Virus record (IMG/VR): IMGVR_UViG_3300025096_000080
Location: 1 to 31,303 of that record
Strand: one strand, 5' to 3'
Length of the DNA: 31,303 bases
Source of the DNA: a virus
Each line of letters begins with the position of its first letter. Position 1 is the stretch's first letter. Under the pieces are notes generated by a model, which was given only the letters and a program-made list of their open reading frames with translations, was not told where the DNA came from and ran no database searches. Shown in pieces: positions 493 through 31,303 of this stretch. A program made the position numbers and the translations under genes.

Positions 493-1104
493 TTACTCCA
501 CTAATCCTGTAGATCCGCATGATTGGGATAAACCCTTTAATAAATTTTCCCAATTTCCATCCAGTAGAGATGTAATATTTTTTGTCATTGTTTGGGGAGG
601 AAGTTGCTTAAACATTCCCATTGCCTGTATAAAATTCTCCGAAACAATATTTACTCCACTCGTTCCATTCAAACATAATCTACTACCAGCAAGACGAACT
701 TCTTTAGTTGAGGCTATAATTACATGACCATTTGAAGATAGTAAAAAATTTCCCTCGTTCTTACCACCTGTTGTTTCTATATGAATATTTTTTGCTTTAA
801 GATGTATATTTCCCCTTTCAGCATTAATAATTAAATCACCATTTTTAGCAACAATTGATCTTGCAATCGCCTCTTTTTGTGTCCCATCAAGACCATGTCC
901 AGAAACTTCATGGTAAGTTCCTTGTATATGTTCAACTTTATCACCGTTATTATGGTAAACCATGTGATTATTTGCTGACGTTATAATGCAAAAATCTCTA
1001 TGGTCATCTAAAGATTCTGGTCCTATAGGACCACAATGAACATAAGCATGTGGATTATTAGCAATTGTATAATCTGGTGCTGGATCTGAAGGTGGTGTTG
1101 TCAT
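493..1104 (-). CDS. gp5 C-terminal-type beta-helix spike protein
   Basis: About 203 aa. Residues roughly 80-160 are a run of short strands with regular polar turns (NGDLIINAERGNIHLKAKN, then HVIIASTKEVRLAG), the pattern of the trimeric beta-helix in T4 gp5 and VgrG needles. The probable role is the membrane-piercing needle under the baseplate hub. There is no lysozyme or OB domain here; those functions lie in separate genes upstream on this strand. I chose the ATG at 1104 because it forms a 4-base ATGA overlap with the stop of the preceding gene. An ATG at 1116 would add four residues and a longer overlap. The assignment rests on repeat pattern and context, not on a catalytic motif. Confidence 0.65.
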   Translation of the reverse strand: MTTPPSDPAPDYTIANNPHAYVHCGPIGPESLDDHRDFCIITSANNHMVYHNNGDKVEHIQGTYHEVSGHGLDGTQKEAIARSIVAKNGDLIINAERGNIHLKAKNIHIETTGGKNEGNFLLSSNGHVIIASTKEVRLAGSRLCLNGTSGVNIVSENFIQAMGMFKQLPPQTMTKNITSLLDGNWENLLKGLSQSCGSTGLVE

Positions 1105-3782
1105 CTCGAAATACAATCAATTACTGTTAACAATTTATCAGTGCCTATAATTTCCAATTCATCCTCTTTAAGGTCTGAAATAGGTGTAAATTTAAGCACA
1201 GATCTAAATCTAGCTCCTACTCCAGTCCTACTATTTATTCTAATATTTGGAAGGACTGTATATCCTTTTGGAGATGATACAACTCTAATATTAACAATTT
1301 CACCATCTGGAGAAACTTCAAGTTCAAATTCTGGTTTATCGTCAAGATTTCCTTCTACTTCAACATCATCATCTTTATCATATCCAGTTCCAGTATTAAC
1401 AATTATAATCGTACCAATTTGCGAAACGACTTGCGATGGGTCTTCAGGAGTAAGATCATCATCACCTCCACTACCAGTTGGGTCAGTTATTCCTGGTAAA
1501 ATTATTATATTCTGATCCTTCCCGTCCCCATCCTGATTAGAATCAGTTTCTCCATCATTATCTCCAGGTATTCCCGTATCTTCATCTCCACCTCCTGGGG
1601 TTGAAGTACCTCCTGAACCACCAGATGGTGTCTCATTACCTCCACCAGTACCAGGAGGTATTGGATTGGGATTAACATCATCTTCACCACCACCAGGTGA
1701 ATCTTCAAAATCTCCATCATCATCATCGTTATCATCATCTGGATCGCCAGATGGATCTTCAACATCATCATCAGCGCCATCATCAACATCACCAGTTACA
1801 TCACCAGCGCCATCACCATCACCAGCGCCATCATCAACATCACCAGTTACATCAATATCAGGATTCGTCTCAGGTTCTGGAATAGAGTCTGGATTAGGAT
1901 CAACAGTAGTATCTTCAATTAATTTTGATACAATAAGTTTAATTATCTCGACAGAAGTATTTTCGAAAGATAATGCTTTTGAATTTAATGCCGTAAGAGT
2001 ATAATACAATTCTTTAGTAGTTTCACCTTCACCAAATTCAATATCAAGTGGAATAACTAAAGATGCCGATCCATTAGGAACTAATCCACCATAGATTATT
2101 TCTGATGTATCAGATTCCTCATCATAACTACCAAGAGAAACTTCAGTTGCATTACTAGTACTCCAAGAAAACCTAACTACACTTCCTTGAATAGGATCTT
2201 CTGGATCTGCTCCAAATGATTCTATTATTGGTGGATCTGTGTTAATTGGATCATTTGGGTCAGATTCAATATTTTCATCTTTATATACTATAATTTCAAT
2301 ATTTCTAGTAACTTCATTTTGTGGATGATCCGTAAAAGTTTTTATTGCTGTAAGTACATATCTTTTTGTAGTTTCATCTTTACCAGCAGGAAAATTAACA
2401 TCATTTTCTGATATGTTTATAGTACGTCTTCCATTAGCAGGTAGATCACCAAGACCTTCAACGTTTAACCTCACCTTATCCGCATTCGATGTTTTCCAAC
2501 TAAGAGTTACTGTATTGTTAACTCCAACTCTATCTGGAACTGATTCAAACTCTCTAATTATTGGTTGAGATCGAACTTGATCAGTATACCCAATTCCAGT
2601 ATTTGTAATCACAACATCAGTAACTTCGCCACCATCAATAATTGGATATCCATTTGCACCAACACCACATCCTCCAGGATCTACAAGAGACATAAATGGA
2701 CTTGATTCGTATTCAAATCCTGGATAAAAAAGATTAACTCCAACAATCTGACCAATGTTATTAACAACAGCACCACCTACAGCTGCTGCACCGCCACCAC
2801 CAAAAAATTCAACCTGAACACCACACTCGAAGGAACCACTATAGCAACCACCTGGAGAAACATATCCAGTATTTTCTGGATCTCCTACTCCAAAAAAATC
2901 ATTCATCCATCCAGTAGCAGATTTGGATATACCACTGCTAAAATTAAAATTATACCAATTATCAGTTTTAGTATTTTGAGGACCACCAAATGGTCCAGCT
3001 GTAAATTCTTTCAATTCTTCATTACATTCTGGTTGCTCACATAAAAATCCTTCAAATCCTAATATAAAATCAATTGCTTGAAAAACAGATCCCATAACTT
3101 TTGATACAGGAGCAAGTGCTCGATTAATAGAATTGAAAAAAGGTTTCATTGCCCTATCAATATCATTAAGAAGTTTGTTCAATATTGCATTAACATAATT
3201 TTCAACAGCACAAAAAGGTATATTGATAATTTTTGCCATTAATGAATATAAAAAATCACCAACCATTTTAAATAATCCATTAATAATATCATCAAATTTA
3301 CAGAATACTTTATCTAATGTAATAGCCAATGCAGACTTAGTGGCCTCCTTTGTTTGTGGTGGATTTGTTAAGTAAATTAAGTCATCAATTCCTTTTTTAA
3401 TTTTTCTAAGAACCCATTCTCTCGCTCTTTGAGTAATAGTTTTAAGAACTCCAACTATTTCTGTTATTGTTGCACTTACTTCACTTTGTAGATTTGATAC
3501 AGCCTTTATAGTTCCATTGATATACTTATCTCCATACTTCTTCATTCCTCTAAGAAAAATAAAAAATTTTTTCAATGAAACGTATATATTTGATGCATTA
3601 TTTTTTCCACACGGAGCAGACTTGATATGTGACATGGCACACAATTCTCTATATGCATGATATGCTAAAGAATTACACACAAGAAATGGTATTCCTTTGG
3701 AATCATCATTTAAAGAATCGATAGTACCCTGGAGGTTCTTACGAGAATTACCATTATCTGCATTGTGAACTTCGTTTGTCAT
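1101..3782 (-). CDS. Large baseplate structural protein with Ig-like domains and acidic linker
   Basis: 893 aa. The N-terminal 250 or so residues are helical with amphipathic or hydrophobic stretches. Two Ig/PKD-like beta domains lie near residues 410-510 (LSWKTSNADKVRLNVEG) and 515-610 (FSWSTSNATEVSLG). Residues about 635-760 are extremely rich in Asp, Gly and Pro. Two Gly-Tyr beta motifs (VVITNTGIGYT near 390 and IIIVNTGTGYD near 790) flank this middle part. The gene lies between the OB-fold gp5-like gene and the beta-helix spike gene, so it probably belongs to the central spike or hub, perhaps as a decoration or connector. The family is not recognised. The acidic linker is encoded by near-triplet repeats, which can expand or contract. 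Confidence 0.8.
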   Translation of the reverse strand: MTNEVHNADNGNSRKNLQGTIDSLNDDSKGIPFLVCNSLAYHAYRELCAMSHIKSAPCGKNNASNIYVSLKKFFIFLRGMKKYGDKYINGTIKAVSNLQSEVSATITEIVGVLKTITQRAREWVLRKIKKGIDDLIYLTNPPQTKEATKSALAITLDKVFCKFDDIINGLFKMVGDFLYSLMAKIINIPFCAVENYVNAILNKLLNDIDRAMKPFFNSINRALAPVSKVMGSVFQAIDFILGFEGFLCEQPECNEELKEFTAGPFGGPQNTKTDNWYNFNFSSGISKSATGWMNDFFGVGDPENTGYVSPGGCYSGSFECGVQVEFFGGGGAAAVGGAVVNNIGQIVGVNLFYPGFEYESSPFMSLVDPGGCGVGANGYPIIDGGEVTDVVITNTGIGYTDQVRSQPIIREFESVPDRVGVNNTVTLSWKTSNADKVRLNVEGLGDLPANGRRTINISENDVNFPAGKDETTKRYVLTAIKTFTDHPQNEVTRNIEIIVYKDENIESDPNDPINTDPPIIESFGADPEDPIQGSVVRFSWSTSNATEVSLGSYDEESDTSEIIYGGLVPNGSASLVIPLDIEFGEGETTKELYYTLTALNSKALSFENTSVEIIKLIVSKLIEDTTVDPNPDSIPEPETNPDIDVTGDVDDGAGDGDGAGDVTGDVDDGADDDVEDPSGDPDDDNDDDDGDFEDSPGGGEDDVNPNPIPPGTGGGNETPSGGSGGTSTPGGGDEDTGIPGDNDGETDSNQDGDGKDQNIIILPGITDPTGSGGDDDLTPEDPSQVVSQIGTIIIVNTGTGYDKDDDVEVEGNLDDKPEFELEVSPDGEIVNIRVVSSPKGYTVLPNIRINSRTGVGARFRSVLKFTPISDLKEDELEIIGTDKLLTVIDCISR
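1772..1854. repeat. Direct repeat (two 32-bp copies) in the acidic linker
   Basis: A 32-bp sequence occurs exactly at 1772-1803 and again at 1823-1854, an offset of 51 bases. It encodes the repeated DVTGDVDDGA motif of the Asp/Gly linker. The offset is a multiple of three, so loss or gain of a unit keeps the frame. Confidence 0.85.
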
Positions 3783-3787
3783 TATTT

Positions 3788-4291
3788 TTATTTTCTAAAG
3801 AAACTTCTAGGTAAATTATGTTTATTTTGTTCTCTTTTCTCTCCAATTTCTTTATTACTTTTCGTATGATAAAGAGCTGGTTGTATATTTTTAAACCAGG
3901 TTAATGATTTTTTAAATTCTGTACTTTTCTTTTGCTCTGCTTCACTATATGTAATTTCATAAGAAGGATCACTTCTTCCTAATACACCAACTATTAATGG
4001 TTGTAGTTTTTCTGGATCATAATTTAAAAATAATCCAATAACCCATTCACCACCACATATTCCAGTACTCATCCTATTTAGAGATCCATGACTGGTTGAT
4101 CTCATAATAAACGCCCATTCTAACGCATCATCAGGAAGGTCAGATCCTAAAGATGGGTGATAACCAATTATTCTAACTTTAACACGATCACCCCATCCTT
4201 TAGGATCTTCTAAGTTTACAGTCTGTCCTAAAGGAACTTGTCCTATAAACCATTTTGGGGGTAATTTTCCAAAAAATTCTGGATTAAACAT
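3788..4291 (-). CDS. gp5 N-terminal OB-fold-like baseplate hub protein
   Basis: 167 aa. It begins MFNPEFFGKLPPKWFIGQV. The first 120 or so residues look like the OB domain of T4 gp5: a strand-rich core with WGDRVKVRIIGYHP, an aromatic WAFIMRSTSHG segment and GEWVIGLFLNYDPEKLQPLIVGVLG. In T4 this domain sits on the gp27 trimer and is followed in the same chain by lysozyme and beta-helix domains. Here the chain ends after a basic tail, so only the OB adaptor remains. It overlaps the hub gene by 8 bases, which suggests translational coupling. The gp5-type OB call is fairly secure from motif and position. Confidence 0.75.
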   Translation of the reverse strand: MFNPEFFGKLPPKWFIGQVPLGQTVNLEDPKGWGDRVKVRIIGYHPSLGSDLPDDALEWAFIMRSTSHGSLNRMSTGICGGEWVIGLFLNYDPEKLQPLIVGVLGRSDPSYEITYSEAEQKKSTEFKKSLTWFKNIQPALYHTKSNKEIGEKREQNKHNLPRSFFRK

Positions 4292-23485: not shown

Positions 23486-24307
23486 TTAAACACCATCCTC
23501 ATGCCAACATTCATTGTAACCATTTTTTTGGTCTTCATATGGATATGACATAAGATCTTTTTTAGGCCACTTTAAATCAATACCTTCTTTAGGGAATGAT
23601 TTAAATAATCTTTTTATTAAATTACTACTAATTTCATAGGTTTCATCCCACTGCTGACAGTTATCATATAGATACTTATCTTGTTGAATGAGCATAATTT
23701 TGACTCGATCATCAAAGTTAGAACAATAATGTGCACCAATATATGTTTCAGATCTGGTAAAATATGGATAATATTTCCACAAATCATTCTTTGTTATTTT
23801 GACTAAGTTTGTAATGTTATACGATTTTAATGGTATGTCAAACAACGTATATAGATCTGTAGTCTTTGCCCAAAAAAGATGATCTCTCGGATGAAATAAT
23901 AAATGTGGATATAAACCTGGAACAAATATACGATCTTGTTCCCTATTTTCTACAAAGAATTCATACATATTGAGCATACTATTACGATCATATAGTTGAT
24001 CTGTACGCATTTTTATAGAGTACTCTGTTGTAGATTTTTTTATTCCATTAATCGAACTACATATTTGAAGATTGACATTATCATCCCCAACAATTTCAGG
24101 TTTTTGATTTGCTACTAGTACAAATCTATCTACATACTTATCAATAAGATTGCTAAGTAGTGATAGGTTGTCAGTGTTCCAACAGGAAAGTATTATATTA
24201 TTCACAAAAGGAATATCAAAATAACTCTCTATAATTTCATTAGTAAATTCATCATATTTTCCTTGCAGAATAATATCAAGTTTTTCGTAGTCATTGTTAT
24301 TCCGCAT
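23486..24307 (-). CDS. WavE-like glycosyltransferase-family protein
   Basis: 273 aa. The order fits WavE lipopolysaccharide-synthesis proteins: an ILQGKYDEFTNEII start, NNIILSCWNTD, YSIKMRTDQLYDR (R-x-D core) and FHPRDHLFWAKTTDLYTLF. The family is thought to transfer sugars to LPS core in Vibrio. Here it closes a phage glycan operon and may act on host LPS or on a phage-made glycan. It starts 2 bases after the large glycosyltransferase gene ends. No membrane segment is visible. Confidence 0.75.
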   Translation of the reverse strand: MRNNNDYEKLDIILQGKYDEFTNEIIESYFDIPFVNNIILSCWNTDNLSLLSNLIDKYVDRFVLVANQKPEIVGDDNVNLQICSSINGIKKSTTEYSIKMRTDQLYDRNSMLNMYEFFVENREQDRIFVPGLYPHLLFHPRDHLFWAKTTDLYTLFDIPLKSYNITNLVKITKNDLWKYYPYFTRSETYIGAHYCSNFDDRVKIMLIQQDKYLYDNCQQWDETYEISSNLIKRLFKSFPKEGIDLKWPKKDLMSYPYEDQKNGYNECWHEDGV

Positions 24308-24309
24308 AA

Positions 24310-27300
24310 CTACTTTTTTTCGCGTTCAATATCATAATGTTTTAAATTATCAACGATAAGATTATGATAGTATGGTGTGAGATTATTATGGTCAATAAGA
24401 TCTAAGAACAATTCCTTAGATTCTTCAACTTTACCCCAATACCATCCAGAAGATGCTTTCTCAAAAAGTAATCCAAGTTTACCAGGATATTCAACATCTT
24501 GAGTTGTTTCTGGTGAATCAAAATCTGATATACTCAATCCTTGAGATGAAATTTGATAACAGTGATTCCATTGAGATCTTTTCTCATAAAATCTAGCAAG
24601 TAAAAAATATGCTTCTGGTCTGGTTGGTTTTATGCATAGTGCTTGCTGCAATAAGGATTCTGCAGTACCATCTCGGGTTCCTTGTTTATCGTAACAATGA
24701 TGGCATTTAATTAATGCCTCGTATTGCATATCATCACTATCAAACCTTTCAGCAGACCTTAAGAAATAAGATAAAGCTGGTGCAGTATGCCCTCGGCTTT
24801 CATACCAAATTCCTAGGTTGTAGTTCTTTTGTGCATTCTCACAATCTAATGAATATTCATACAACAATCTTTCAAGTTCAGTCTTTTCTCTCACAACAAT
24901 TTCTTGATTTGCAACTACATCATGCACTTGATGTTGATTTGCGAGAGATTCGTCAGTAGAAAATAAACTATTTAAAGATACATTATTATTACTCCACCAC
25001 TCAGTTACATAGTCATATGTTTCTTTATGATGACATTTATTTTTAGATTTTAATTCATCTACATGACCATAAAATGTTGATGGGTGATCTTGATCTTCAA
25101 CAAACAAATTTGTGGAATATACTTTACCAAGACCATAGAAAATTACATTTTCTGGCATGGGATAAAAATTGGCATGTGGAATATTAAGATTAAATGATTG
25201 ACCATCACAGTAGTGATCAATTAACTTTTTAGCATATCCCCTGGTTAAAATATATGCAGTTACAGACCAATCATACATAGACCTATCACGCAGTTTTACC
25301 TCTTCCTGCCCATCTCTAACACAGCAAAGTTGTACACATTCAGCATCTTCTGGTAGTTTTTGAATAAATTCAACCCAAGAAAAATTCCAATACTTAACTG
25401 TCTCAAGACTTAAATCATCTTCACAAAAGAATGCATATTCTTCATCAGTTTCATCATACCATTTTCTAATCATTTTGATGTGAGATACTACACACCCCTT
25501 TGTACCATCATCTAATGCATGTAGTTGCTCACCATATATTTGGTCTGCACATTCAGAAAATCTTTTTGATACCAAACCAATAGTTTTTTCAATTCCACAA
25601 CTAAAAAATTGTTTATTTAAACTATTTCTTCTTTCTACACTCTCTTCTAAACTTACATAATATACGCTAGGAAAATTTAATAACTTAATTTTATTTGGTA
25701 TATTTTTACTTTGATTCAATTTAAATGACATTTTTTTCCAATTGTTAAGAACGATGTTGTGAGAATTGTGATGATGAGCATTGATGTTATCATCCTCTCC
25801 TTCAATTTGATATGATGCTTTAAATGTTGTGTCTTCTAGAAATAATGGAATTGAATATACTTCTTCACTTAGTCCAAAAATGATAGTTTCAATAATAGGA
25901 ATAATAGCCCAATCGGGTCTATGTTCTATATCATGGCATTTAGCATCAAGATGAAATACCTCATCATAATAGTATGTATCAATTAATTTTTGTGCATATT
26001 TCCTGCTAATTAAATATGCACATCCAGACCAATCACTCCAATCTCTAGTTTTGAATACTATATCCAAACCATATTCATATTCTCGCAATAAACATAGTTG
26101 AACACATTCCCACTGTGGAGGTAATGAATTAAAGAACTCATCCCAGGTAAAATCCCAATACTTCACAGTATCTAAACATATATCATCTTCACAAAAGAAT
26201 GCATATTCTTCATCAGTGGAATTCAACCAACTTTTAATTGCTTTCAGATGTGAAGTTACTGGTCCTCTACTACCAATACTTAGTCTATGCAAATATTCAC
26301 TTCGAATATCATGCTCACTATCATCATACTTTTTAAAAATATGAGGAGTTATATGTTCTTTCAGTATACCATACTCTTCAAATTTTTCATATAAATTTTT
26401 TCTTCTATCTTCAGAATGTTCAACACTAATAAAATTAACTGGTGGAAGATTATTTAAGTTATTTTCCACATGTTTATCATTCATCGATGCCAAATAATAT
26501 CTTTCACTCTCATTAGTGACATTCCATACAGTTTTCGATTTAATATATGGTTGCGTAACTTCATCTATTTTAGATCCATTTATTTGATTATGCTTCATAG
26601 CCAGAAGATAATCAGTTTCCCATTCTAAATTCCCACCACTATAAGAAGAAGAAAGATTATATTTTATAGATTCACGTATTTCTTTTTGTTCATGTGTTGA
26701 ACTAAAATTTTCAACTCTTTTACGATCAGAATGTGGTAAATGTATTAGATAGTAGTCATAGTCTATTTTTTTATGCTCTAACCCATATAGTTCAAGTCTT
26801 TTATAAAGTTCATCATCTTCAAAAGAATAAAATTCTGAAAACGATTCATTATAACCACCAACTTCAATAAAATTCTTTTTGGAGATGTAAAGAAGACCTG
26901 TCAAATATCGATAATATGAACAATACGATCTAAAATAATCTTGTTGTTCATCAACGGTCAACTTCGACTTATCATATACATAAAGTCCTTGTGCTTCATC
27001 ATAAAATTCTTTATTTACTATAGATGATGTCCCACTAACAAATGAATTCTCATCAATTTTATACTTATCAAAGAAAGAAAAATATGGATTGATTATATAA
27101 TCACAATCAACTTTTAATATATAATCTCCAGTTGCTTGTTGAGCTGCCAGATTTAATGGTTGTGGTTGATTAAAATACTCAACATCATCTACACGAATAA
27201 TTTTAATTCTTTCGTCTAATTGAGTTAGATTTTTTAATGGTTCGTCGGATTTCCAATCAACAATAATAATCTCAGTTATTTCAGAATGACTTATCCAAGA

Positions 27301-27363
27301 ATTTAATGATACTCTCAGTGCTTCATTACGATTTTTACAAGCACATATTAATGAAATGGTCAT
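24310..27363 (-). CDS. Multidomain glycosyltransferase: GT2-GT25-GT25-TPR
   Basis: 1017 aa from an ATG overlapping the previous stop (ATGA); an in-frame start at 27390 is less likely. Residues 1-230 are GT2-like: MTISLICACKNRNEALRVSL, then LKVDCDYIINP as the DxD. Residues about 300-465 and 560-720 are two GT25-like LPS glycosyltransferase domains, each with an S-x-x-x-RR-x-x-L start (HSEDRRKNL, SVERRNSL), a VTSHLKAIKSW or VVSHIKMIRKW helix and FFCEDD. Residues about 850-1010 are TPR-like helices (YNLGIWYESRGHTAPALSYF, PEAYFLLARFYEKRSQW). One chain may therefore add several sugars in order. The acceptor is unknown. Confidence 0.8.
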   Translation of the reverse strand: MTISLICACKNRNEALRVSLNSWISHSEITEIIIVDWKSDEPLKNLTQLDERIKIIRVDDVEYFNQPQPLNLAAQQATGDYILKVDCDYIINPYFSFFDKYKIDENSFVSGTSSIVNKEFYDEAQGLYVYDKSKLTVDEQQDYFRSYCSYYRYLTGLLYISKKNFIEVGGYNESFSEFYSFEDDELYKRLELYGLEHKKIDYDYYLIHLPHSDRKRVENFSSTHEQKEIRESIKYNLSSSYSGGNLEWETDYLLAMKHNQINGSKIDEVTQPYIKSKTVWNVTNESERYYLASMNDKHVENNLNNLPPVNFISVEHSEDRRKNLYEKFEEYGILKEHITPHIFKKYDDSEHDIRSEYLHRLSIGSRGPVTSHLKAIKSWLNSTDEEYAFFCEDDICLDTVKYWDFTWDEFFNSLPPQWECVQLCLLREYEYGLDIVFKTRDWSDWSGCAYLISRKYAQKLIDTYYYDEVFHLDAKCHDIEHRPDWAIIPIIETIIFGLSEEVYSIPLFLEDTTFKASYQIEGEDDNINAHHHNSHNIVLNNWKKMSFKLNQSKNIPNKIKLLNFPSVYYVSLEESVERRNSLNKQFFSCGIEKTIGLVSKRFSECADQIYGEQLHALDDGTKGCVVSHIKMIRKWYDETDEEYAFFCEDDLSLETVKYWNFSWVEFIQKLPEDAECVQLCCVRDGQEEVKLRDRSMYDWSVTAYILTRGYAKKLIDHYCDGQSFNLNIPHANFYPMPENVIFYGLGKVYSTNLFVEDQDHPSTFYGHVDELKSKNKCHHKETYDYVTEWWSNNNVSLNSLFSTDESLANQHQVHDVVANQEIVVREKTELERLLYEYSLDCENAQKNYNLGIWYESRGHTAPALSYFLRSAERFDSDDMQYEALIKCHHCYDKQGTRDGTAESLLQQALCIKPTRPEAYFLLARFYEKRSQWNHCYQISSQGLSISDFDSPETTQDVEYPGKLGLLFEKASSGWYWGKVEESKELFLDLIDHNNLTPYYHNLIVDNLKHYDIEREKK
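25414..26217. repeat. 36-bp exact direct repeat between the two GT25 domains
   Basis: A 36-bp sequence at 25414-25449 recurs without change at 26182-26217. It covers the DEEYAFFCEDD active-site segment of each GT25 domain. The spacing (768) is a multiple of three. The surrounding domain sequence is much more diverged. Confidence 0.85.
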
Positions 27364-28202
27364 CTTATAGGTTCTCCAGTTTCGTAACAATTTGGTTCTG
27401 TATAAGCATTTGAATTTTCACATAATGCGTACTCATATCCATATTTTATATAAAGATCTGTATGTCCAGGAACTAATAAAGTTCCACCATTAGGACCAGT
27501 ATACCATCGTGTAGTATCCTCCGCAACTCTTACTGTAAATTGAACTCTTTTAAATTGTTTTATTTTTTCTGAATACCCAATTCTGCCAAAATATCTGACA
27601 TAAGATCGTTCTATATTCAAATGATGTGGACAATTTTTAAAATCTTCAATTACATCATTCGTATTAATATAGTTTTGAACAATACCAAGAACAAGATCAA
27701 CATCCGAAGAAGGAAAAATATGGTGTCTATCTGTCATTCCACCATACCCTTCCCCAAAAGGAATCCAAAAATGATCATTATCTAATAATGGATGCTGATC
27801 ATAATAAAAATAATCTGATCTTGTAATTATAATTCTATCATAACTTATTAATATATCACGTTTATTTTTCAAAATCCAATCTCTAAGAGCTAGAGTAATT
27901 GCACTAGAACCTTTTGATTTATATAACCCAGAAAATCCATTGTCTCCACATAGAGAAAAAACTTTTTTCCATATCCCGTTTTCTCCATAATTTTCTACAT
28001 AATAATCTGCCCATTCGTCATATTCAGGTAATTCCCAAATATACTTTGATTTTGAATATAATGACTCTATTTTATTCTCATTATACCCAAAACAAACTGC
28101 AAGATCTGCATTATATGGAACTAGTAAATTTTCATACATACTATTCCAAGTTTTTTCACCACCTCTAGCATTGCCAATTAATATAACTAATGTTTTTTTC
28201 AT
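27360..28202 (-). CDS. Glycosyltransferase-like protein of unknown family
   Basis: 280 aa. It starts MKKTLVILIGNARGGEKTW, a Rossmann-like first strand and turn, and later has DRIIITRSDYFYYDQHP (an R-S-D-x-x-Y motif similar to that in WavE and related phage glycosyltransferases) and DHFWIPFGEGYGG. I infer a sugar-transfer role from this and its position, coupled by 4-base overlaps to the genes on both sides. No donor-binding DxD is certain. Other possibilities include a sugar-modifying protein. Confidence 0.65.
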   Translation of the reverse strand: MKKTLVILIGNARGGEKTWNSMYENLLVPYNADLAVCFGYNENKIESLYSKSKYIWELPEYDEWADYYVENYGENGIWKKVFSLCGDNGFSGLYKSKGSSAITLALRDWILKNKRDILISYDRIIITRSDYFYYDQHPLLDNDHFWIPFGEGYGGMTDRHHIFPSSDVDLVLGIVQNYINTNDVIEDFKNCPHHLNIERSYVRYFGRIGYSEKIKQFKRVQFTVRVAEDTTRWYTGPNGGTLLVPGHTDLYIKYGYEYALCENSNAYTEPNCYETGEPIR

Positions 28203-28672
28203 AAAATGTTTTTGTAATAATTACACTTATCTGTACAGATACCTTTTGTAGATAATATTCTATCATATCTTTCCTCGTATTTATTATAATATCCAATAGA
28301 CTCTGGCAATACAATAATAGAGTTATTATACGGAAATTGACCTACTAAGACCATACCATATCCCTTACTAGTTAATACATACGCATCCGTATCATGATAA
28401 AAATAATGCAAATTAAAATCTACAGAAGAACAATACTCTAATGATTCGCGATCTTTACAATGAATCCAAAGTTTTTCTTGATTTCTTTGTAACCATTCCA
28501 AATTTACAGGATACTGTGGATTATCATGTCCAAGATATAATTCACCATTTTTTGATCGCAAATCAACTTCGACATCATAACCCAATTTTAATGCTTCATC
28601 AATGTAGTCTGGACTATTTTCCCTTTCAGGATTAGGACCATCTACATTTCCCCTATGAGCAATAATGTACAT
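28199..28672 (-). CDS. GDPD-like phosphodiesterase (short form)
   Basis: 157 aa. The N-terminal part has the glycerophosphodiesterase pattern: AHRGN with His6 and Arg7, Glu18-Asn19, VEVDLR with Glu35 and Asp37, and LGHD with His49. These are the usual catalytic and metal residues. Full GDPD proteins are 240-300 aa, so this is a reduced barrel or a related fold. It lies between the RuBisCO-like gene (1-base gap) and the glycosyltransferase-like gene (4-base overlap), suggesting a step on a phosphodiester or sugar-phosphate intermediate rather than phospholipid breakdown. Confidence 0.7.
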   Translation of the reverse strand: MYIIAHRGNVDGPNPERENSPDYIDEALKLGYDVEVDLRSKNGELYLGHDNPQYPVNLEWLQRNQEKLWIHCKDRESLEYCSSVDFNLHYFYHDTDAYVLTSKGYGMVLVGQFPYNNSIIVLPESIGYYNKYEERYDRILSTKGICTDKCNYYKNIL

Positions 28673-28673
28673 A

Positions 28674-29912
28674 TCAAAACTCTAAAACCCACTCAGGAAG
28701 AGAACCACCACCAGTCTCATATCCCCATTTGTCAATAGCAGCACGGAATTCTACACCAGGAGTCTTATCAATTGCTTGTCGCATCGCTAGAGCACCAGAC
28801 AGAGTGCCTCCAGGGTGTCCATGAACTGCTCCACCACAGTTTGCCAGGAAGTCAGTTCCAAATTTTTCAGCAGTGGTGTTGACAATTCCTGGATGCATAC
28901 CACAACTGAGTGCGGGTAAAACATTTCTGTGATGTAAAGTATCCATCACAGTTTTCAGTTCTACCTCATCATCACTCAAGTATCCACCCCACATACCAGC
29001 ATGGATGGTATCAACTCCACACAGACCTGCAAGGTCACAAAGAACACTCCAATCAATACCAAAGTTGTGACGCTTATCAGTCAGAATCTTATCTCCACTC
29101 TTTTGATAGTGAACAAATAATGGCAGATCCATCTTCCTCACAGAATTGTAGACACCAAGTCCACTCCAGAAATTAATATGGATACCATTACCACCATTAT
29201 CTGCAACAAACTTTGCACGATCAAGGATAGTATGATGGTCACCGTTAATACAGAAGCAGTAAATTACTCCCCTACCACAGTCATTGACAAGATTTGAAAT
29301 AAGTTCTACACGATCTTCAAGGCGACAAAAAGATGGATTGGAAAGAATCTCATCTTCTTTAATAAAGTCTACTCCACCATCAAGAAGTTCTTTAACCATC
29401 TCCGAAAGAGTTTGTGGAGAAATTCCAGTTTTTGGTTTCACAATAGCACCAGAAAGTGGTTTATCGTAACGGTTAACAAACCTGCGGATACCATCAATAC
29501 CATACTTAGGTCCCAAGAACTGTGCTTCAACATCAACAGGAAAATCAAGTTTCCTAAGTCTACATGTTTTAAAGACATCAATATCAAGATGTCCACCCAT
29601 CAACTGACACATCAGGTGAGAAATGCCATCACCTTCCCAATCAGTATTCACTTTAGGAAAACCAATTTTTACTTCTCCAGAAGTCATATTAGTTAGTTTT
29701 TCCTCATCATCATAAATGACACAAGATGCAAGTTCAAAAAGTTCATCAGTTTCCCAACGATTACGAACTTTTGGATTACCCACACTTTGTCCAATTGCAA
29801 GTGCCCAAGCGGCATCTCGTAAGTTACCTATATTTTCATATGTTTCAATGTAAAATGTAGCAACAACACAACGATTTTTTTCTTGTTCTGTTAATTCTCT
29901 AAAAAATTTCAT
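28674..29912 (-). CDS. RuBisCO-like protein (Form IV-type, not a CO2-fixing RuBisCO)
   Basis: 412 aa, normal for RuBisCO large-subunit relatives. The barrel motifs are clear: GAIVKPKTGIS (Lys159, Lys161, equivalent to Lys175/177), DGGVDFIKEDE (Lys185 as carbamylation site, Asp187, Glu188), HYQKSG (His268), DTIHAGMWGGY (His304), ALSCGMHPG (Ser336) and CGGAVHGHPGG. Residues needed for carboxylation are changed: Arg295 is Tyr269, His298 is Ser272 and loop-6 Lys334 is Tyr311. The metal site thus remains, which favours enolisation, isomerisation or retro-aldol chemistry on a keto-sugar phosphate, as in known RuBisCO-like proteins. It is coupled to a cupin (4-base overlap) and a GDPD-like gene. Confidence 0.9.
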   Translation of the reverse strand: MKFFRELTEQEKNRCVVATFYIETYENIGNLRDAAWALAIGQSVGNPKVRNRWETDELFELASCVIYDDEEKLTNMTSGEVKIGFPKVNTDWEGDGISHLMCQLMGGHLDIDVFKTCRLRKLDFPVDVEAQFLGPKYGIDGIRRFVNRYDKPLSGAIVKPKTGISPQTLSEMVKELLDGGVDFIKEDEILSNPSFCRLEDRVELISNLVNDCGRGVIYCFCINGDHHTILDRAKFVADNGGNGIHINFWSGLGVYNSVRKMDLPLFVHYQKSGDKILTDKRHNFGIDWSVLCDLAGLCGVDTIHAGMWGGYLSDDEVELKTVMDTLHHRNVLPALSCGMHPGIVNTTAEKFGTDFLANCGGAVHGHPGGTLSGALAMRQAIDKTPGVEFRAAIDKWGYETGGGSLPEWVLEF

Positions 29913-30235
29913 ACTTTAACCTCAAATTTGTCTGTTGATATAGATGGTGTTTTTACACAGACCACTATACAGTCTTCCAAAAATACTGGATCTGCAACTT
30001 CATATCTATCTAATATGAATACATCACCACTGTTTATTTCTTTATTTTGAATTACCATTTTTCCAGAAACTAGAACATTATATTCTACACCTTTTTTATG
30101 ATAATGTGCAATCCACTTTTCATCTTTTTTATGATTTAAAACTGCCACTTCAAAATCTTTTGTTCTAAAAATAGAGGGTTCAAAATCACCAATGATCCAC
30201 CCTCTAGTATAATCAGAAAGTTTAGTAATGTTCAT
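29909..30235 (-). CDS. Small cupin protein
   Basis: 108 aa. The cupin core is visible: HYHKKGVEYNVLVSGKMVI (His-x-His and Glu), then NSGDVFILDRYEV. Such single-domain cupins sit beside sugar nucleotidyltransferases in phage and bacterial glycan loci and may be isomerases or sugar-binding proteins. The reaction is not predictable. The C-terminal conserved His of motif 2 is missing, so metal binding is uncertain. It overlaps the nucleotidyltransferase gene by 14 bases and the RuBisCO-like gene by 4. Confidence 0.8.
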   Translation of the reverse strand: MNITKLSDYTRGWIIGDFEPSIFRTKDFEVAVLNHKKDEKWIAHYHKKGVEYNVLVSGKMVIQNKEINSGDVFILDRYEVADPVFLEDCIVVCVKTPSISTDKFEVKV

Positions 30236-30944
30236 ATTTCATAAGAAAGGAATCTAAGTCTTCTGGAACTCCAACAGGATTATGTTGCCAATTTGGTATA
30301 TGATGAATACCAACTTTCAAACCATTTTTTATCATGTGATTATATGAAGGACCAACATAGAATTCACCATTAGGAGCTCTATCATCACATTCTATCATAC
30401 TCTCAGTACTTTGTACATAATACTTTCCCTTTCTCCAATAATGAATACCATTTAAAGAAATGTCACTCAACACCTCCTTCTCCTTTATCATTTTAACAAA
30501 ACCATTTTTGTCAATTTTGGCATAACTATTTTTGGGAGTAGTTGTACTATAAGTTACAACAACACCATCATACTTATAATACCTTGCAGTTGTCAAGAAA
30601 AGATTTGGATCCCACCACATAATCTGATCACAGTTTGCAATAATAAGTTCATCTTCATTATTAATATAATCTTTGAATAAAAGACAACTGGATGCAGGAC
30701 CTTCAGTTGTTTCTTCTACACTGATTATTTTTGCATCGGGAAGAATGTTGTGAAGTAATGTGCAAACCTGATCATAATAACTATCCTTTCTGATTACAAA
30801 ATGATATACCCCAATTAATCCAAGAGACTCAATAACTCTTTGAATCATTGGAGTACCATGTATATCAATTAAAGGTTTTGGTATTTTGTAAGTATCTCTA
30901 GGAAATCTAGTTCCTTCACCCGCCATTGGTATTAAAATATTCAT
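30222..30944 (-). CDS. Sugar-phosphate nucleotidyltransferase
   Basis: 240 aa. The N-terminus has the signature PMAGEGTRF and KPLIDIHGTPMI of the NTP_transferase family, with NCDQIMWWD as the metal-binding Asp region and NPVGVPEDLDSF near the end. It activates a sugar-1-phosphate (or a similar group) as a nucleotide sugar for the glycosyltransferases downstream. The specific sugar cannot be told. It starts directly at the preceding stop codon. Confidence 0.88.
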   Translation of the reverse strand: MNILIPMAGEGTRFPRDTYKIPKPLIDIHGTPMIQRVIESLGLIGVYHFVIRKDSYYDQVCTLLHNILPDAKIISVEETTEGPASSCLLFKDYINNEDELIIANCDQIMWWDPNLFLTTARYYKYDGVVVTYSTTTPKNSYAKIDKNGFVKMIKEKEVLSDISLNGIHYWRKGKYYVQSTESMIECDDRAPNGEFYVGPSYNHMIKNGLKVGIHHIPNWQHNPVGVPEDLDSFLMKYEHY

Positions 30945-31303
30945 TCACTTTACCTCAATAAACTTATTGTATCTCTTTTTTCTAGCAAATCCAATTCCCC
31001 AATCTTGAGGACATGCATTTTCAATAACATCCCATCTAGTTTTATCCAAATTATTAATAAATTTATTTGGACCTGGATGACATGTTGTGTCATGTAGACC
31101 AACTATTCCATTTGGTGCTAACAATTTAGTATATTCCCAATCAGACAATACTTGATTAATACTATGCCATCCATCAATAAAAATGAAATCAAATTTTTTA
31201 ATTCCCCAAAACTCATTGAACATATTCATATTTTCATCAATATATAAACTATTATTTTGAATAGTATGAATATTATTATCTGGATCCCTTATAAAAGACC
31301 TGT
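30945..31303 (-). CDS. Methyltransferase-24-like protein, 5' end outside the window
   Basis: The frame is open from the stop at 30945 to the right edge, so at least 118 residues are present and the start lies outside. An internal ATG at 31229 is not the likely start because the frame continues upstream. The fragment has FDFIFIDGWHSINQVLSDWEY followed by LLAPNGIVGLHDTTCHPG, the end of a class I SAM methyltransferase of the type found in cell-surface loci. The SAM-binding Gly motif would be outside the window. Its stop is followed directly by the nucleotidyltransferase ATG. Confidence 0.75.
   Translation of the reverse strand, partial: RSFIRDPDNNIHTIQNNSLYIDENMNMFNEFWGIKKFDFIFIDGWHSINQVLSDWEYTKLLAPNGIVGLHDTTCHPGPNKFINNLDKTRWDVIENACPQDWGIGFARKKRYNKFIEVK

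Follow-up and report, generated by a model that had tools for sequence, protein, structure and literature searches.

A separate clade of RuBisCO-like proteins in phage glycan operons: a possible sugar-phosphate enzyme exchanged with ribulose-5-phosphate enzymes

A relative of RuBisCO encoded among the glycosyltransferase genes of a virus raises the question of which reaction it performs there and which pathway it serves. The window, that is the whole stretch of DNA analysed (31,303 nucleotides), was the entire IMG/VR record IMGVR_UViG_3300025096_000080 and possessed genes for a T4-like baseplate, a tail tube, gp32, PhoH and ThyX. As its gp32 was closest to that of Synechococcus phage S-SKS1 (80% identical) and the gene just downstream of the operon matched almost only cyanophages, the virus is judged from its genes to be of the T4-like cyanophage type. 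Elsewhere in the window (1101-4291), a gp5-like baseplate hub/lysozyme was encoded in two pieces, ORFs 3788-4291 and 1101-3782, which align with consecutive portions of phrog_1922; the gene may be genuinely split, or the break may stem from an error in the sequence.

The gene for the RuBisCO-like protein (RLP), an ORF running from ATG to stop, belongs to a tightly packed operon in the order nucleotidyltransferase, cupin, RLP, GDPD-like gene and glycosyltransferases (Table 1). The original prediction had placed it in a phage glycan operon, coupled to the cupin and the GDPD-like gene and flanked by the nucleotidyltransferase and the glycosyltransferases; the neighbours and the overlap and single-nucleotide gap around the RLP gene agreed with this description. 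The GDPD-like protein was assigned to the GDPD family from its fold and its HRG, E/D and H motifs: its predicted structure was a compact GDPD fold (pLDDT 94), the top Foldseek matches were GDPDs (probability 0.95-1.0, with E-values of only 1e-3 to 1e-2), and residues H6, R7, E35, D37 and H49 were invariant in its family. Its sequence did not reach the threshold of the Pfam GDPD model.

Table 1. Genes of the RLP operon in the window (positions are those of the window).
Feature	Position	Strand	Remarks
WavE-like LPS synthesis protein	23486..24307	-	
Large glycosyltransferase, GT2-type N-terminal part and GT25-type part	24310..27363	-	
280-aa protein of no recognised family; putative glycosyltransferase by context	27360..28202	-	4-nt overlap with GDPD-like gene
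Compact GDPD-like protein, 157 aa; HRG, E/D and GHD motifs kept	28199..28672	-	1 nt past RLP stop
RuBisCO-like protein, 412 aa	28674..29912	-	Pfam, PDB, predicted fold, tree
Small single-domain cupin, HxHx4E motif	29909..30235	-	4-nt overlap with RLP
MobA/RmlA-type nucleotidyltransferase, phrog_3980	30222..30944	-	14-nt overlap with cupin
Methyltransf_24-type methyltransferase, truncated at window end	30945..31301	-	

The RLP matched the Pfam family RuBisCO_large (PF00016; E = 5.3e-42; 144.5 bits against a cut-off of 30.1) and had 99 distinct matches among PDB sequences, the best being a form III RuBisCO (2cwx; 9e-41). Its structure, predicted with AlphaFold2 from 38 homologues, adopted the RuBisCO fold (pLDDT 93.4; pTM 0.91), and Foldseek and VIA-align set the model on RuBisCO and RLP structures (Z 38-43 to 50 entries), with a Z of 43.4 and an rmsd of 2.3 over 381 residues for 2cwx and a Z of 42.1 for the MtnW enolase (2oem). 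The overlay that had been proposed as a check thus landed on the RuBisCO fold, and membership in the RuBisCO superfamily, as first claimed for this ORF, was confirmed by sequence matches, predicted fold and phylogeny. Pairwise dN/dS with homologues ranged from 0.03 to 0.07, indicating a gene under strong purifying selection.

The phylogenetic position was determined with references for forms I, II and III, YkrW, Photo, NonPhoto and OiaX, whose types were set by NCBIfam, PDB identity or tree position (IV-GOS, IV-AMC and Archaeoglobus IV-Aful sequences were left out). The RLP family formed one clade, supported at 100% SH-aLRT in a tree of 68 rows and at 100/100 (bootstrap/SH-aLRT) in a carefully built one of 47 rows, uniting the viral members with those of SAR11, Legionella, Azospirillum, Elusimicrobia, Verrucomicrobia and nanoarchaea. 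The clade was placed inside the superfamily, as anticipated, and outside the carboxylating forms I, II and III, IV-YkrW (MtnW; 160.9 of 409 bits with PRK09549 and 119.8 of 513.6 with TIGR03332), IV-Photo (1tel, 2qyg) and IV-NonPhoto/OiaX (3nwr, OiaX; OiaX model score of 157 against a 700-bit cut-off). Alphaproteobacterial RLPs added to the tree fell next to YkrW, away from this clade; three of them adjoined a cupin similar to the DeepYkr methylsulfurylase, the context from which their DeepYkr identity was taken. The window RLP shared neither their position nor a methylsulfurylase-type cupin neighbour. A 2007 ocean (GOS) survey had left 65 RuBisCO homologues in unplaced groups; some of these could belong to this clade, and "IV-GOS" may overlap it.

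Residue equivalences were read from an alignment with superfamily references and 38 diverse members of the family. Invariant across the 38 were the counterparts of Lys175 and Lys177 (K159 and K161 in the RLP), of the carbamate/metal triad Lys201, Asp203 and Glu204 (K185, D187 and E188) and of Ser379, Gly381 and Gly403 (S336, G338 and G360), with Lys177 being retained by this clade alone among the RLPs compared. His327 corresponded to H304 (His in 32 members and Gln in 6), and Arg295 to K271 (34 Lys, 1 Arg, 3 Ser). Two replacements were equally invariant, Q270 for His294 and Y311 for Lys334, while D274 stood for His298 in 34 of the 38 members, and Asn123, Thr65 and Glu60 were replaced by G107, N46 and G41 in the window RLP. 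As far as residues tell, the clade has the K/D/E carbamate/metal site of the superfamily, and the carboxylase residues (Lys334, Asn123, His298, Thr65 and Glu60) are all replaced in the RLP. The alignment supported the earlier reading of a RuBisCO relative without these residues, together with its assignments of Lys159, Lys161, Lys185, Asp187, Glu188, His304 and Tyr311 (for Lys334); two others did not stand, as Arg295 and His298 had been equated with Tyr269 and Ser272 and correspond to Lys271 and Asp274. Since Lys334 and Asn123 are required for carboxylation by RuBisCO, their loss makes CO2 fixation by the RLP improbable, and the residues kept make metal binding and proton abstraction possible. 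The Gln found at His304 and the Ser found at Lys271 in some members suggest that the substrate may vary within the clade.

Relatives of the RLP were encoded by 241 IMG/VR stretches (one scan with six peptides, all confirmed by tblastn), of which 80, ranging from 97% to 57% identity, were kept. The clade as a whole counts hundreds of marine viral sequences, besides a few bacteria and archaea, among its carriers. No relative was detected by tblastn among the 50,697 phage records of INPHARED, nor any full-length RuBisCO-like match in the BFVD viral structure library (best TM 0.40), so that the RLP is absent from the isolate phages of these collections. GTDB genomes yielded 21 loci, carried by SAR11 single cells, Azospirillum, an Elusimicrobia MAG, a Verrucomicrobia MAG, three Legionella species and others, including, among archaea, two nanoarchaeal MAGs (Pacearchaeota, Nanoarchaeia) and a Woesearchaeota fragment. 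Presence was patchy in Legionella (4 of 22 species, the fourth added after the first GTDB scan) and in the SAR11 sample (2 of 197 genomes), a pattern typical of glycan loci. Surveys of Elusimicrobiota and Azospirillales mostly returned other RLP or RuBisCO clades.

The gene neighbourhood was counted in the 63 viral loci that had 2.5 kb or more of sequence to either side, several of which are near-copies, so that the counts are not independent: a nucleotidyltransferase lay within 2.5 kb of the RLP in 62, a cupin was present in 54, a GDPD-like gene in 48, and all partners in 40. Recurrence of the cupin-RLP-GDPD order, on which the original prediction had made its case depend, is thus widespread, and the RLP is not a stray insertion. 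At cellular loci, the nucleotidyltransferase adjoined the RLP or lay one gene away in all but two short contigs, including those of SAR11, Legionella, Azospirillum, Elusimicrobia, Verrucomicrobia and a nanoarchaeon (located by reading the DNA for Verrucomicrobia and Azospirillum). The order was GDPD-RLP-cupin-nucleotidyltransferase, then CysD/CysNC-like genes, in Azospirillum, and RLP-cupin-nucleotidyltransferase in Elusimicrobia. The surroundings of one SAR11 copy (L084) resemble an O-antigen locus and encode epimerases and a flippase-like protein (by reading the proteins), and three Legionella species possessed a divergent LicD-type phosphotransferase gene beside the RLP-nucleotidyltransferase pair; homologues of this LicD were sought near viral RLPs and not found. 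The cupin/GDPD pair was considered and rejected as an RLP-specific feature, as both genes also occur with RpiB and HAD forms of the nucleotidyltransferase; they are part of a wider nucleotidyltransferase cassette.

Some loci possessed additional genes. The CysD and CysNC-like genes (sulfate activation) of Azospirillum directly follow the RLP module (L231:6750-9565) and hint at a sulfated glycan. In one subgroup (L029-L037, L074), the RLP module is followed by genes for an APH-like kinase, an AroB-like sugar-phosphate cyclase, an SDR and a radical-SAM-like protein, which suggest a cyclitol-type product there. In SAR11 (L089, L090, L092-L095), a second nucleotidyltransferase paralogue with a degenerate GxGxRF signature (PVAGPNNIFD in L092) lies directly upstream of the RLP, which is also flanked by an intact copy.

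In related phages, the nucleotidyltransferase was joined to other enzymes. In the Bellamy phage (gp206, L235:6838-7995), it is fused to RpiB and followed by a homologue of the window cupin, and the copy in SynMITS9220M01 has the same length and order; in S-SKS1 (SWZG_00042, L237:7001-8428), it is fused to DHBP synthase within a glycan operon; and in S-CAM9 it is fused to a HAD domain, as also in B23 by sequence reading. IMG/VR contained 30 loci with the RpiB fusion (PF02502, 4e-32), in most of which cupin and GDPD-like genes follow, and 10 with the DHBP synthase fusion (PF00926, 5e-65). RpiB (ribose-5-phosphate isomerase B) and DHBP synthase both act on ribulose-5-phosphate, so the RLP occupies the place of a pentulose-phosphate enzyme, and these fusions point to a sugar-phosphate role for it. 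Nucleotidyltransferases paired with phage RLPs mostly clustered in the tree of that family; as one RLP lineage (L047/L050, with SAR11 L083/L085) has its partner from inside the HAD-fused group, RLPs and nucleotidyltransferases appear to have been re-paired on one or more occasions. Since the gene flanking the operon of the window has a different location in S-SKS1, replacement at one and the same locus in the two phages was set aside, and exchange is claimed at the cassette level only.

These cassettes also differ in content. In Bellamy and L331-L360, genes for a KdsC-like phosphatase and a PfkB-like kinase precede the RpiB fusion, which is annotated only as 'phosphatase', and cupin and GDPD-like genes follow; homologues of the PfkB and KdsC genes were sought near viral RLPs and not found. 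In S-SKS1 and L320-L329, the DHBP synthase fusion is followed by genes for an APH-like kinase, a small HAD protein and a transaldolase-like protein, a separate unexplained sugar route in cyanophages.

From the clade, fold, active-site residues, conserved cassette and exchange with RpiB and DHBP synthase, we infer a candidate function to which we give an even chance: a non-carboxylating, Mg-dependent ketose-phosphate enolising isomerase that feeds the nucleotidyltransferase for glycan synthesis. Carbamylated Lys185, Mg2+ held by Asp187 and Glu188, and Lys159 would together enolise the substrate, a ketose phosphate that is probably of the pentulose type (ribulose- or xylulose-5-phosphate, for example); reprotonation of the enolised intermediate would give an isomer rather than cleavage products; the adjacent nucleotidyltransferase would activate this isomer as a nucleotide donor; and the glycosyltransferases of the operon would add the activated sugar to a virion or host-surface glycan. 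An RLP can perform a 1,3-isomerisation of this kind, as the DeepYkr RLP is a 5-methylthioribulose-1-phosphate 1,3-isomerase (PMC5893883). The isomerase reading was further favoured by the invariant metal-site, Lys175 and Lys177 residues, the cassette, the RpiB and DHBP synthase fusions, the glycan-type neighbours in L084 and Legionella, the DHBP synthase fusion of S-SKS1 (nearest by gp32), and the pairing of RLPs with more than one nucleotidyltransferase sub-lineage. Counted against it were HAD-nucleotidyltransferase cassettes with none of RLP, RpiB or DHBP synthase. Furthermore, the RLP and RpiB routes need not be parallel, the PfkB-like kinase and KdsC-like phosphatase of RpiB cassettes not having been found near the RLP, and, DHBP synthase being a lyase, exchange with it is no proof of an isomerase reaction.

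The chief alternative, although a rather unlikely one, is lyase chemistry: the RLP would cleave or decarboxylate its substrate, as OiaX does 3-oxo-isoapionate-4-phosphate and DHBP synthase does ribulose-5-phosphate, into a C3-C5 keto-phosphate that the nucleotidyltransferase would activate directly in CDP-polyol style. The inclusion of DHBP synthase among the exchange partners fits this, and the LicD-type gene by the Legionella pair points to a unit that is CDP-activated and linked by a phosphodiester, but the RLP lies outside the OiaX/NonPhoto clade, scores low with the OiaX model, and keeps Lys161 where OiaX has Ala. Action on 5-methylthioribulose-1-phosphate or another methionine-salvage compound is distinctly improbable, even though RLP-cupin adjacency is also a hallmark of the DeepYkr pathway (PMC5893883): the RLP falls outside the YkrW and DeepYkr clades, the accompanying cupin shows no similarity to that of DeepYkr that could be detected and belongs to a family also found with RpiB and without any RLP, and the neighbours, judged by reading rather than with dedicated models, included no recognisable gene of methionine salvage. 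A DeepYkr-type RLP-cupin pair was accordingly rejected by the tree and the cupin comparison. It is more improbable still that the protein is catalytically inactive or regulatory, or host cargo without a glycan role, as the loss of substrate-handling residues (Lys334, Thr65, His298) might suggest, given the invariance of the metal-site and Lys175/177 residues, the low dN/dS and the recurrence of the cassette in phages and several bacterial phyla. A true RuBisCO aiding CO2 fixation by phage or host has a negligible chance, since the protein, whose closest solved sequences are form III RuBisCOs and which keeps Lys175 and Lys177, has lost all five carboxylase residues and is not within forms I-III.

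To our knowledge, the functions of RLPs are catabolic or salvage ones, namely methionine salvage and the breakdown of apionate and hamamelose. The wider proposal, about which we are evenly divided, is that an old separate branch of the superfamily, present in bacteria, archaea and many phages, makes a sugar phosphate for a nucleotide-activated glycan donor, and that phages swap it with unrelated ribulose-5-phosphate enzymes. If this holds, a biosynthetic glycan role would be a new functional branch of the RuBisCO superfamily and may bear on the roles of non-carboxylating relatives of the RuBisCO ancestor; phages would gain a defined enzyme for altering surface glycans; and one nucleotidyltransferase family with RpiB, DHBP synthase or RLP would offer a direct, testable route to a new nucleotide sugar. 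Neither the superfamily nor the Form IV label is new, while the phage hosts, cassette and partner exchange of this clade appear to be: an open-access library yielded no paper that describes a RuBisCO or RLP in a phage or that places an RLP in glycan synthesis, which is weak evidence as subscription papers and preprints lay outside the search.

Compared with known systems, the RLP shares with form III RuBisCO (2cwx, 1geh) its fold, best sequence match, Lys175/177, carbamate/Mg triad, Ser379 and Gly381/403, but differs in its missing Lys334, Asn123, His298, Thr65 and Glu60, its separate clade and its glycan context. IV-DeepYkr RLPs are likewise non-carboxylating and encoded beside a cupin, and their ketose-phosphate isomerisation is the model for the proposed chemistry; unlike them, the window RLP belongs to a separate clade, has a dissimilar cupin and nucleotidyltransferase and GDPD-like partners, and is not placed in methionine salvage. 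IV-YkrW (MtnW, 2oem) resembles it in fold, in the Gly at the Glu60 position and in a possible enolase-type chemistry, whereas in MtnW the Asn123 position is Lys and Lys177 is absent, where the RLP has Gly107 and Lys161. With IV-NonPhoto/OiaX (3nwr), it has in common the Mg/carbamate site and, presumably, sugar-phosphate substrates, but not the clade or the profile score. The Bellamy RpiB and S-SKS1 DHBP synthase cassettes share the nucleotidyltransferase family with the RLP cassette, and the RpiB form also its cupin and GDPD-like families, but RpiB or DHBP synthase replaces the RLP and kinase, phosphatase or transaldolase-like genes are added. Finally, by description, the cassette may be likened to the CDP-ribitol pathway (TarJ/TarI, Bcs1), which has a reductase in place of the RLP and in which a ribulose-5-phosphate enzyme is paired or fused with a nucleotidyltransferase to supply the donor for glycan phosphodiesters.
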